Part shown: positions 14,203 to 19,519 of the stretch, piece after piece | Position numbering within the stretch: the stretch's first letter is position 1 | How the letters are laid out: each line of letters opens with the position of its first letter | NCBI GenBank assembly: GCA_016841045.1 | Contig: JAENZX010000001.1 | Coordinates: 205,541 to 269,540 of the forward strand | Direction: 5' to 3' | DNA length: 64,000 nt | From: Thermincola carboxydiphila | GTDB lineage: Bacteria; Bacillota; Thermincolia; Thermincolales; UBA2595 | Notes under the pieces: generated by a model | Database searches by the model: none | Seen by the model: the letters and a program-made list of their open reading frames with translations, nothing else | What the model was told of the DNA's origin: nothing | Translations under genes and position numbers: made by a program

Positions 14203-15105
14203 CTAAATATAAATTAGCCTCGTGACCATTCCACCTGGTGTTTCCCCGTTGTTTGAACGGTGAAAGGTCTTCGTTCCGTTTAACGGCCAAAGACCGGGGT
14301 TGTTTGCTAAAAACTCAATATCCCATCTCTGTCCTGAAGCAACGTTAATAGTATCATGCATCAGGTTATGCCTAGGGAAAGCATCTACGGCAGCAACCCT
14401 AAAGTCATGACCATGAAGATGCATTGAATGAGAATTATTAGACTTGTTAATAAACCTCATTCTGATTTTTTGACCCCGTTTGACGTAGACCGGCACGGTA
14501 TCCGGAAAGGCCTTTCCGTTAATCGTAAAGAAATTTGGATTCCGCCCAAACTTATCAATCGAATAAGTCCCTGGATAAACTTTACCAAGAGTAGGCTGAG
14601 AAATCTCCCATTGTTGTAATAAGAAAACATAATCCCCATCAGGAATTGTATCCTTAGCAGCAGAATCAGACTTGGGCAGCACTACTAAAGGACCGATTAG
14701 TCCTTCATTTGATTGGAATCCGTGGGTCGAATGATAGAAAAATGATCCACTCTGCCAGAGGTAAAACCTGTATGTATAGGATTGCCCCGGTTTAATCACA
14801 GGTGTCGGTTCTCCTATATCGGGAGCTCCATCCTGTGAGTTTGGTTTAACATAACCGTGCACGTGAAGGGCGGTATCCTCTGACATACGATTCTCGACCG
14901 TAATGGCAATCCATTCTCCCTGCCGCGCTACTAGCAGAGGACCTGGGGTTGATCCATTATAGCCTTTGGCCTTTATTGCTAAATTGGTTAACAAATTGTG
15001 ATTAATTGGCTTAGCTGATAGATGAAAGTACCTTACATTATTGCTGAGTCTAAAATTAGCCTTTGGAATACCAGGAGCATCAATAATCGTCTCCCAACCT
15101 TTCAT
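14203..15105 (-). CDS. Two-domain multicopper oxidase-like protein with altered type-1 copper site
   Basis: 300 residues, two cupredoxin domains, no signal peptide. Three of the four MCO copper motifs are present: HVHG (LHVHGYVKP), HSTH (FFYHSTHGFQSNEGLIGPLVV) and HxxHxH (SMHLHGHDF). The fourth, HCHxxxH, reads NGTKTFH: His-Cys-His is replaced by Asn-Gly-Thr, so the type-1 Cys and the type-3 His are gone. It is therefore unlikely to be a conventional oxidase. The downstream lipoprotein gene may be in the same operon (149 bp gap). Confidence 0.85.
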   Translation of the reverse strand: MKGWETIIDAPGIPKANFRLSNNVRYFHLSAKPINHNLLTNLAIKAKGYNGSTPGPLLVARQGEWIAITVENRMSEDTALHVHGYVKPNSQDGAPDIGEPTPVIKPGQSYTYRFYLWQSGSFFYHSTHGFQSNEGLIGPLVVLPKSDSAAKDTIPDGDYVFLLQQWEISQPTLGKVYPGTYSIDKFGRNPNFFTINGKAFPDTVPVYVKRGQKIRMRFINKSNNSHSMHLHGHDFRVAAVDAFPRHNLMHDTINVASGQRWDIEFLANNPGLWPLNGTKTFHRSNNGETPGGMVTRLIYI

Positions 15106-15267: not shown

Positions 15268-16743
15268 TTAGGTGCCGCAAAAGGTTCGGTAAAGACGGTT
15301 TGTTAATTCAGGCAGTGTAGAGTAATACTCCTGTTCAGGGCAATGGGAGTAGGGGGTTGAAAGAACCTCAAGAAGGCGCTCCATCACGCTGTAGTCTCTA
15401 TGTTCCACTGCCGCTTCCAAAGCTTCTTCAACCCTGTGGTTGCGAGGAATTAGCGCAGGATTACTGTCCCTCATCAACTGATGAGAAGCCTCCTTTGATT
15501 CCCGCTGTCTTTCCAATCTTGCCTGCCAAAGCTTATTCCACTTTATAAATTCTGGAGTGCCAACTAAAACCGAATCCTCCGCCTTGTCAAAAGTCAATGC
15601 CTTAAAAGTATTGGTGTAATCAGCACTATACTTCTGCATCATACTTAGTAGATCTTCAATGAGGGATTCATCTTCAGGCTCCTCGTTAAATATCCCCAGT
15701 TTAGCTCTCATTCCCCTGAGCCAATTATAGTGATACAACTCTGTAAAGCTTGAAACCGCATCCTGGGCCAATTTGACAGCCTGCTCCTGGTCAGCATGGA
15801 GCAGCGGCAATAAGGTTTCTGCAAATCTGGCCAGATTCCATGCGGCAATATTCGGTTGGTTACCATAGGCATAGCGACCATAAGTGTCAATGGAACTGAA
15901 TACTGTCGCAGGGTCATAGGTATCCATGAAGGCGCAGGGGCCATAATCAATGGTTTCTCCACTAAGGGCCGTGTTATCGGTGTTCATTACCCCGTGAATA
16001 AAGCCAACCATCTGCCATTTAGCAATCAGCGCGGCCTGGCGTTTAATTATTTCTTGAAGCAGGTTAAGAAAGCGATTCTCATCAGCGTCAACTTCCGGAA
16101 AATGCCTCTGCAGTGTATAATCAGCCAGAGTCCGGAGTTCCTCAACAGTGCCCCATTGTGCAACGTATTGAAAAGTGCCAACCCGGATATGACTGGCAGC
16201 TACACGGGTAAGAATTGCACCAGGTAGAGCAGTTTCGCGGATTACTGATTCACCCGTTGCTACCACCGCCAGACTGCGGGTGGTAGGAATACCGAGGGCA
16301 TTCATAGCTTCACTGATGATATATTCACGCAGCATCGGACCAAGAGCCGCCCGACCGTCACCCCCACGTGAATATGGCGTTTTGCCGGAGCCCTTGAGTT
16401 GAATATCAAACCTTTCACCTGAAGGTGTAATCTGTTCACCTAGCAGGTGAGCCCGACCGTCACCCAACATCGTAAAATGCCCGAACTGATGCCCCGCGTA
16501 GCCTTGAGCAAGCGGCAAAGCGCCTTCGGGAATCCGGTTGCCGGCAAGCATCGCTGCCCCCTCGCTGCTTTGCAGTGTATCAGTGTTTAACCCCAGGGAT
16601 TCTGCCAGCGAAGAATTGAAAATGATCAACTTTGGTGAACGTACAGGAGTCGGGTTGAGGATAGAAAAAAATGATTGCGGCAGACGAGCATAGCTGTTGT
16701 CTAAGTTCCATCCTGTTTCGATTGCTGCTTTAGTATTTGTCAT
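15268..16743 (-). CDS. selO: SelO/YdiU protein adenylyltransferase (pseudokinase-fold)
   Basis: 491 residues from the ATG at 16743 (AAGGAG upstream; a longer frame is unsupported). SelO motifs: [59 protein letters not shown] with the DYGP metal-binding site. It transfers AMP to Ser/Thr/Tyr of target proteins, using ATP in an inverted orientation, and is tied to redox stress. The C-terminus ends FCGT, with Cys where eukaryotic SelO carries selenocysteine. Neighbours are unrelated. Confidence 0.93.
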
Positions 16744-16877
16744 GATTTCTCCTTGTCTTCTTCCATCTTTTGCTTTTGTTTTACAACAACTCAACGTCAT
16801 CCTTTCTAGTGTCTGCTTGTGCCCATCTTTTATACTGGAAGAAAACTTCTTATATTCTACATGTCCAATCATTGAAA

Positions 16878-17762: not shown

Positions 17763-17890
17763 TTTATGACCTCCTCTCTTATCAATAGCATAACAGAAAT
17801 CAAATTAATAAATCCGACATTTCATGCACAATTATATAGGGTTAATCCAAGACAGAGATGGTTTGCTAAAAACAATTAGGAATATAAAAA

Positions 17891-17908
17891 AGGACGAGTA
17901 ATCGTCCT
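17891..17908 (-). terminator. Terminator of the hgcAB operon
   Basis: AGGACGA / TCGTCCT hairpin with a 4-nt loop, followed on the minus strand by TTTTTTATATT. It lies 28 bp beyond the TAG that ends hgcB when the TGA is read through. Confidence 0.85.
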
Positions 17909-17935
17909 AATAGTGTGGCCTATCTATCACTAGCC

Positions 17936-18208
17936 CTAACAGTCACAATGGGGCTCACTACCTGTGAGCCAGCCTTTTATAATGGCATAAGTTCATCCTA
18001 CACCTGATCTGACAGTTACTGCATTAATTGGACAGTTTTGGGCACAGGCTCCACATTCCATACAACTATCCTTATCACGTATATCGGCTTTGCCTCCGTC
18101 AATCATAAAAACCTGGTGAGGGCAAACCTGAAAACATATTCCACAACCAATACATTTATCCTTATTTAACTTTAGAGTCACTACGTCTTTTAAATACTTA
18201 AGAGCCAT
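17936..18208 (-). CDS. hgcB: HgcB, ferredoxin partner of mercury methylation, with in-frame TGA (candidate Sec72)
   Basis: Residues 1-71 form a 2x[4Fe-4S] ferredoxin: CIGCGICFQVCP (19-30) and CMECGACAQNCP (49-60), the latter the HgcB form. A TGA at 17993-17995 would end it after SGVG. The same frame continues TYAIIKGWLTGSEPHCDC to a TAG, giving 90 residues with the Cys-x-Cys tail expected of HgcB. The TGA falls at the conserved extra Cys (Cys73 in the Desulfovibrio ND132 protein). A SECIS-like hairpin follows. HgcB is thought to donate electrons to HgcA. The alternative is a nonsense mutation. The gene begins 13 bp after hgcA. Confidence 0.85.
17952..17995 (-). promoter_or_regulatory. Candidate bacterial SECIS element in hgcB
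   Basis: TGA (17995-17993), 22-nt linker, then the perfect 7-bp stem GGCTCAC / GTGAGCC with loop AGGTA. The loop starts 29 nt after the TGA and has G as its second base. Bacterial SECIS elements are described as stem-loops with the apical loop roughly 16-37 nt after UGA and a G in the first two loop bases. No T-run follows, so it is not a terminator. Confidence 0.65.
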
Positions 18209-18221
18209 AATTTTTTGTCAC

Positions 18222-19358
18222 CTACCCTAAATTTGATATGGTGTATGCAACTAATAATCCGATACCTGCAATGGATGCTGCGACCACCAAAGGCACCACA
18301 ATGATAGTTTCTCTCAGTGTACCTGAGAAAGATGTATACGTACTGGAACCAGTAAAATTCAACGCAAGGTATGTAGATATTGACAGAAGCAGTAAAATGT
18401 TACCTATTAATATGAGGTGGTTATCAGCGAACATAAACACACTATGGAAGTTAAAAAATACCAACGCCCAAAGAGAACCGAGAAATAAACCTTTTAAAGC
18501 GAAGGACCTAAATGGAATGTATGGCAATAACACCGGAACAAAAAAGGTTCCCATCAGGAATGCCCCGACATATGAAAGGAGATTGAAAAAGGTTTCTGTT
18601 AGACTGTTTAAGTCAAAACCACGGTGGTTAATTATGTTAAAGACTAACAATAAAATAACCGGTATTAATAAAAATTTCAGACCGGGAATTATCTCCATGG
18701 GAGTCAATACAATCCTGTCTTTTAAATCAAAGCTTACCGTTCGCATTTCATTGGATGCATTCCAGCCGTTGGCCAGAAACTCAGGAATATCTTTGGCTCT
18801 TACCGGCCCAAAGCTTACTTTGAACCCGGAGCTTTTAGTTACTTTTTGGCTTGCTACGCCGGGCGCTCCAAGCTGCGGTATGATAATCTTCCGATGGGAT
18901 ACCACATGTTCTAACTTAGTCTTATTGATTCTGTTGATAAGCTCATTTGTACCGAAGGTACCTTTACCTGCCGCACACCAAACATTGATGCCTTTTGTGT
19001 TCAGGACCAAAACCCATAAGTTTTGACCAGCTAATTCCTTACGTAATAAATCAAAGGTTAGTTTATAATTAGCTGTGACAATAACTGGTGAATCCTGCTT
19101 TGGATCTCCTACAGCATAAAGCCCCGGCGAGACAGTATAGTTATAACGGTTTATACCCCATCTAACCTTGAAGTTGTCAAAGTGGTCCTTTGCGGTTAAC
19201 ACGGTTCTTATTCTCCGTATTTTGCCAACGGGGTTTTCTATATACCCCTCAATCCACTCGTGCTGGACACCCTCGTCATTATATAATGCCCCATCAGTAT
19301 CTACCTCAGGCAGACAATCTTTCGGCCCTCAACAATTTCTCTGATTATTGTCTATCAT
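18222..19358 (-). CDS. hgcA: HgcA, corrinoid mercury methyltransferase, with in-frame TGA at codon 10 (candidate Sec10)
   Basis: The hallmark cap-helix motif NVWCAAGK is present (Cys128 of the extended protein), followed by GTFGTNELINRI and QLGAPGV. About five membrane helices fill the C-terminal half. A frame starting at GTG 19202 lacks the family N-terminus; reading upstream restores EWIEGYIENPVGKIRRIRT. That segment runs from ATG 19358, which has AGAGGTG 7 nt upstream, through one TGA (codon 10) in the context Asn-Cys-TGA-Gly-Pro-Lys-Asp-Cys. Total 378 residues. HgcA transfers a methyl group from its corrinoid to Hg(II); its native role is unknown. Confidence 0.88.
19298..19331 (-). promoter_or_regulatory. 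Candidate bacterial SECIS element in hgcA
   Basis: TGA (19331-19329), then an 8-pair stem TGTCTGCC... TTGTCTGCC / GGTAGATA (two G-U pairs) closing loop TGA. The apical loop starts 20 nt after the TGA with G as second base, within the described bacterial SECIS range. Weaker than the hgcB hairpin. Confidence 0.5.
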
Positions 19359-19367
19359 AGCAAACAC

Positions 19368-19399
19368 CTCTGTTAACTTAAATCTCTGTTAACTTAAAT
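19368..19399. repeat. Tandem 16-bp repeat upstream of hgcA
   Basis: CTCTGTTAACTTAAAT occurs twice head to tail, ending 9 bp before the hgcA start. Each unit contains the palindrome GTTAAC. It overlaps the ribosome binding site region, so it could bind a regulator or be a slippage duplication. Confidence 0.7.
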
Positions 19400-19473
19400 C
19401 AAAAATTACGTTTTCATTTTCACCTAATATGATTTTACTCTACAGGGGTATGTTTTGTCAGCATAAAAATGAA

Positions 19474-19493
19474 TCCGCCCATAATTAGGCGGA
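19474..19493 (-). terminator. Terminator between the 77-residue gene and hgcA
   Basis: TCCGCC / GGCGGA stem with 8-nt loop, followed on the minus strand by TTCATTTTTATG. It separates hgcAB from the upstream gene. Confidence 0.7.
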
Positions 19494-19519
19494 CTTAATC
19501 TGTCGTTGTTAGTTGTATC

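Follow-up and report, generated by a model that had tools for sequence, protein, structure and literature searches.

A predicted selenium version of the mercury-methylation pair HgcAB in Thermincola carboxydiphila

Introduction

Methylmercury production depends on the protein pair HgcAB. In a 64,000-nucleotide stretch of Thermincola carboxydiphila (contig JAENZX010000001.1), which is called the window here and within which all positions are counted, the hgcB gene contains an in-frame TGA, and this raises the question of whether the codon is a stop or is read as selenocysteine (Sec). Sequence comparison across relatives indicates with high confidence that the hgcAB operon of the window encodes the mercury-methylation pair in a selenium form, in which UGA combined with a selenocysteine insertion sequence (SECIS) hairpin would be decoded as Sec in both genes. 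For hgcB, readthrough as selenocysteine is very likely, and a plain stop, a pseudogene or a sequencing error as the source of its TGA is very unlikely. The hgcA gene of the same operon probably also encodes a selenoprotein, so that the operon would encode two.

The in-frame TGA of hgcB

The hgcB frame lies on the minus strand (17936..18208) and runs from an ATG at 18208 to a TAG stop at 17938-17936, with the in-frame TGA at 17993..17995 (minus strand) as codon 72. Without readthrough, the product has 71 residues; with TGA read as Sec, it becomes a predicted selenoprotein of 90 residues, a two-cluster ferredoxin with Sec at residue 72 and a C-terminal CDC, ending in ...SGVG-U-TYAIIKGWLTGSEPHCDC. 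A first-pass annotation of this DNA had claimed, with no mention of the strand, that a TGA follows SGVG and the same frame continues to a TAG, that readthrough restores a family-like C-terminus and that the TGA falls on a conserved extra Cys, all of which is borne out here. The score against NF040864, the HgcB equivalog model with a curated cut-off of 99 bits, increases from 108.6 bits up to the TGA to 127.7 bits with readthrough. HgcB proteins are characterised by two CxxCxxCxxxC[P] 4Fe-4S motifs, an additional Cys (or Sec) some 12 residues further on and C-terminal Cys, together with a neighbouring hgcA; the window protein has the motifs CIGCGICFQVCP and CMECGACAQNCP, U72 and the CDC end, and hgcA, identified by its match to NF040863, is located directly upstream.

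The tail past the TGA, 18 residues long, is conserved and closely resembles that of homologues with Cys. In the alignment, relatives from the Bacillota have GVGCASAIIKGWLTGTEPSCDC, as in L018, or a near-identical sequence, with TGT or TGC at the TGA codon of the window. The homologues therefore have Cys where the window has UGA, and the sequence is conserved on both sides of the codon. The position corresponds to Cys73 in the HgcB of Pseudodesulfovibrio mercurii ND132, a strictly conserved residue about 12 residues past the second cluster motif whose exchange for Ala abolishes methylation (PMC7305189).

One alternative, which is very unlikely, is that translation of hgcB simply ends at the TGA and that the resulting 71-residue ferredoxin, lacking the extra Cys and the tail, is functional. 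It can draw on the fact that both ferredoxin motifs are complete ahead of the TGA and that a standard gene caller would end hgcB there. Against this stand the conserved amino acids of the tail and the essential role of Cys73 in ND132, as well as the comparisons of DNA given below for close and distant relatives.

A second TGA in hgcA

On the minus strand, hgcA and hgcB make up an operon of two genes, and hgcA also contains an in-frame TGA, which was not seen in the first-pass annotation. The GTG at 19202 chosen as the start by a plain open reading frame (ORF) caller is about 50 codons too late and truncates hgcA, removing the usual N-terminus. From the ATG at 19358, the gene (18222..19358, minus strand) encodes a predicted selenoprotein of 378 residues that begins with MIDNNQRNC-U-GPKDCLPEVD..., the TGA (19329..19331, minus strand) being residue 10 in the motif NC-U-GPK. 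The N-terminal tail of relatives with the Cys form has CC or CCC at the Sec site. HgcA scores 425.4 bits against NF040863 on the plain ORF (18222-19202) and 425-430 bits overall, compared with a cut-off of 275. The gene thus combines the features of a Sec-form HgcA: a score above the cut-off, CU near the N-terminus and a SECIS hairpin.

Predicted SECIS hairpins and close relatives

Both window genes carry a predicted bacterial SECIS (bSECIS) on the minus strand, and both hairpins satisfy the bSECIS rule as given in PMC13188914. The hairpin of hgcB (17952..17970), GGCTCAC-AGGTA-GTGAGCC, has a 7-bp stem and the loop AGGUA, which begins 29 nucleotides past the UGA, and it agrees in stem length, loop and distance with the one that had been described on first inspection. 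The hairpin of hgcA (19298..19316) is UGUCUGCC-UGA-GGUAGAUA, with an 8-bp stem and the loop UGA; in DNA form it reads TGTCTGCC-TGA-GGTAGATA (19316-19298), and its loop lies 20 nucleotides past the TGA codon. Only about 2% of synonymous recodings of the hgcB tail yield an equal or better rule-satisfying hairpin. A scan of 17800-19500 with Rfam returned no relevant RNA family, and no Rfam model recognised a bacterial SECIS there. The strong part of the SECIS argument is the comparative evidence.

A close relative is G133, a genome of another family that has TGA in both genes (...NYC-U-GPKES... in hgcA and ...GVG-U-TYAIIKGWLTGSEPHCD... in hgcB). The hgcB genes of the window and of G133 are identical at 155 of 213 nucleotides before the TGA and at 53 of 54 nucleotides from the TGA to codon 89. 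Where the amino acid is the same in both, the same codon is used at 27 of 50 positions before the TGA and at 15 of 16 after it (Fisher p 0.003), which argues against an ordinary stop since the DNA past the codon is more conserved than the gene body. The hgcA stem is preserved between the two genomes across two G-U to G-C changes. TGA is found in the hgcB of G239 and G371 as well, with the hairpin GCTCAC...GTGAGC, and a tRNA-Sec above the gathering score is present in G133, G239, G371 and G051.

Two HgcB tails contain a further in-frame TGA; in G133 (L166) it takes the place of the second Cys in CDC, and in G773 (L263) that of a Gly in ASCG. Each of these may be the codon where translation truly ends, another Sec or the result of a mutation.

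Probable selenocysteine forms in the Desulfobacterales

The first relative with TGA found beyond the phylum of the window, L067, belongs to the Desulfobacterales and possesses both selB and tRNA-Sec. A search of 389 genomes of this order found HgcB in 164, and 73 hgcB genes were fetched, 53 of them flagged for TGA and 20 unflagged controls. The TGA is located exactly at the GVG-U codon in 52 of the 53 flagged genes, followed by ...YIIQVWIKGKENASCG... and mostly ending with CC, and one has TGC; neither TAA nor TAG was found at this codon in any of the 73 fetched genes. Every one of the 52 TGA genes has a perfect 7-bp hairpin, TTATCCA-NGNN-TGGATAA, at 17 nucleotides. Among the 51 distinct sequences the codons of the stem are frozen, with Ile encoded by ATT, by ATC and by ATA at its three positions (51/51 each) and Gln by CAG (50/51), while the Ala, Gly and Lys codons flanking the stem vary freely in the same sequences. 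Cys relatives from the order have mixed codons at the stem, and their loop codon usually encodes Thr or Gly, not Val. The energies of the best rule-satisfying hairpins separate the TGA set from the Cys set with a Mann-Whitney p of 6e-11, for sequences that are related and not independent. A tRNA-Sec was matched in 38 of the 40 TGA-HgcB genomes tested, and the two genomes without a match may be incomplete assemblies.

Two candidates for a TGA HgcB were rejected: L024 (G087), which has TGC for the extra Cys and its only TGA within the C-terminal tail, was left out of the count, and L212 (G590) has TGC at the Cys site.

The presence of TGA at this single codon in more than 50 genes, with TAA or TAG in none of those fetched, is difficult to reconcile with an ordinary stop, and taken with the evidence given above it makes that explanation very improbable. 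In many distant HgcBs the codon is likewise TGA and the hairpin is intact, which supports the proposal of the first-pass annotation that HgcB is a selenoprotein.

Sec HgcA with the motif CU is common in the Desulfobacterales too (L182-L185, L187, L189-L193, L196, L199 and L202), in genomes whose HgcB has Cys. Across these 13 HgcAs the hairpin covaries strongly: counted in a fixed register, its innermost five pairs are formed in all 65 of 65 cells, by 14 types of pair; this includes the hgcA of L196, which has a wholly different stem. When the register is slid by 1-3, at most 35 cells are paired. A fixed register was used in place of a MAFFT alignment because MAFFT misplaced one sequence with a different stem.

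How the two forms are distributed

Sec HgcA and Sec HgcB are near-exclusive in the sample, with Sec HgcA accompanied by Cys HgcB and Sec HgcB by a non-Sec HgcA; both Sec forms occur in one intact operon only in the window genome and in G133. This is an observation and not a rule, because the pattern used left 7 of the 20 HgcA N-termini that were fetched from genomes with Sec HgcB unassigned. In a quick HgcA tree, which comes from an unfinished search and must be treated with care, the Sec genes that come from the phylum of the window cluster together with a support of 98 in the Shimodaira-Hasegawa-like approximate likelihood ratio test (SH-aLRT), and the Sec HgcB and Sec HgcA genes of the Desulfobacterales are placed elsewhere. 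As the Sec genes fall in separate parts of this tree, HgcAB appears to have acquired or lost Sec on several occasions.

In Clostridium sp. KNHs214 (L066, 1871-3290), a decayed hgcAB was found whose remnants carry both TGAs. Its HgcA has lost the cap-helix Cys region and has a broken frame, and its hgcB has no rule-satisfying SECIS; as the operon is decayed, it was dropped as SECIS support.

The existence of this decayed operon gives some ground to a further explanation, that the TGA of the window arose by point mutation from TGT or TGC in an hgcB that is decaying or was misread. Against this, hgcA and hgcB of the window show no other damage, the independent genome G133 has the same TGA together with frozen synonymous sites, and hgcA has a second TGA with its own hairpin. 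Decay or a sequencing error is accordingly most improbable.

Selenium machinery and genetic code

The synthesis of selenoproteins requires selA, selB, selC (tRNA-Sec) and selD, for which a search had been recommended in the first-pass annotation, and all four are present in the window genome. The scores are 635.1 bits for selA and 359.9 bits, above the cut-off, for selB. The tRNA-Sec reaches 73.9 bits compared with a gathering score of 47 and has the anticodon UCA according to ARAGORN; selD (400.4 bits) has an in-frame TGA of its own and adjoins selA on contig C30. TGA terminates 8 of the 45 window ORFs of at least 200 codons and is therefore a normal stop and not a reassigned sense codon. Reading of UGA as another amino acid (Trp or Gly, in a variant code) or nonspecific near-cognate readthrough would equally give an in-frame TGA followed by sense sequence, but the use of TGA as a stop, the Cys codons of relatives at the affected sites and the full Sec machinery with its SECIS hairpins leave hardly any room for it.

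Proposed role of the selenols

If the operon is indeed a selenium version of HgcAB, SelB and tRNA-Sec would decode UGA and its SECIS hairpin as Sec in hgcA and hgcB, a readthrough in the cell that we infer from the sequences. The selenol of HgcB would replace the thiol of the Cys after the second [4Fe-4S] motif (Cys73 in ND132), and that of HgcA would replace one Cys of the N-terminal Cys pair. Selenols bind mercury far tighter than thiols, and the selenol would thus bind Hg(II) or methylmercury more tightly, or tune its transfer to be faster, than the thiol does. The natural Sec forms therefore constitute a built-in experiment on the role of the Cys73 residue, as the residue replaced in the HgcB of the window is the extra Cys that ND132 cannot lose. 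The cysteines of HgcB have been proposed to shuttle Hg(II) and methylmercury, with the product received by Cys73 (PMC7305189). The stronger binding of mercury by a selenol at this site may make uptake quicker, protect the cell or delay release.

A more tentative idea, which we consider rather unlikely, is that the two Sec residues, one in HgcB and one in the flexible N-terminus of HgcA, cooperate in a selenol relay for the capture of Hg(II) or the release of methylmercury. If true, such a relay would make this HgcAB a mechanistically distinct variant, and doubly Sec HgcAB would be rare because most lineages have Sec in only one subunit.

Several points weigh against the reading of the operon as a selenium version of the pair. 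The HgcB of the window ends in CDC and not, as most relatives do, in CC, and we know of no tested function for the N-terminal motif of HgcA. The bSECIS rules are loose, and a lone hairpin is weak evidence because chance rule-satisfying hairpins also occur in some Cys homologues (L049 and L172). In addition, the role of the selenol in mercury handling is one that we infer.

Relation to known systems

Selenocysteine HgcA and HgcB were reportedly first described by Haft and Gwadz in 2023. A 2026 review (PMC13188914) includes among selenoproteins HgcB, as a mercury methylation ferredoxin (NF040864, motif GVGU, WP_250697400.1), and HgcA, as a corrinoid protein (NF040863, motif CU, WP_250697417.1), and cites Haft & Gwadz 2023 for both. 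The belief in the first-pass annotation that no Sec HgcB was known is therefore wrong, and since Sec forms were predicted in 2023, the operon of the window is a well-supported new example and not a new discovery. A search of one full-text library found no paper besides PMC13188914 that links hgcB with selenocysteine. Apparently new here are the codon-level evidence for the SECIS, the abundance of Sec forms in the Desulfobacterales and the near-exclusivity of the two forms.

Compared with the listed Sec HgcB, the window gene has the same family model, motif and in-frame TGA at the extra Cys, and no defining difference was found, although it has the CDC end and no terminal CC. In both the listed Sec HgcA and that of the window, CU lies close to the N-terminus and the remainder of the protein is complete, the window hgcA being distinguished by sharing its operon with a Sec HgcB. 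The window operon resembles hgcAB of ND132 in the gene pair and its order, the HgcA cap-helix NVWCAAGK, the two 4Fe-4S motifs of HgcB, the extra residue past the second motif and the C-terminal cysteines, and differs from it in the predicted Sec for Cys73, CxC in place of CC and the predicted CU in the N-terminus of HgcA. In comparison with SECIS elements of the E. coli fdhF type, the hgcB hairpin of the window has a different stem sequence and the loop AGGUA at 29 nucleotides. The Desulfobacterales hgcB hairpin, CCAGGUCUGG, presumably resembles the apical part of the E. coli fdhF SECIS.

These findings need to be considered in surveys, as standard gene callers terminate Sec HgcB after residue 71 and place the start of HgcA too far downstream. 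Because at least 52 hgcB genes in a single order of sulfate reducers have the Sec form, mercury-methylation databases probably contain truncated HgcB sequences that have not been recognised as such.

Neighbouring features

The operon is flanked by further features on the minus strand. Upstream of hgcA there is a promoter-like site (19432..19461, CTGACA-18-TAAAAT), which is a consensus match only, and just ahead of this site lies a terminator (19495-19472). An intrinsic terminator 3' of hgcB (17891..17908) consists of AGGACGATTACTCGTCCT followed by TTTTT. Near hgcAB, a gene for a SelO-family protein adenylyltransferase was found at 15268-16872 on the minus strand (PF02696, 387.9 bits), with a C-terminal Cys (YRTFCGT). 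Downstream of the SelO gene, also on the minus strand, a short multicopper oxidase of 300 residues is encoded at 14203-15105 (PF07732/PF07731/PF00394).
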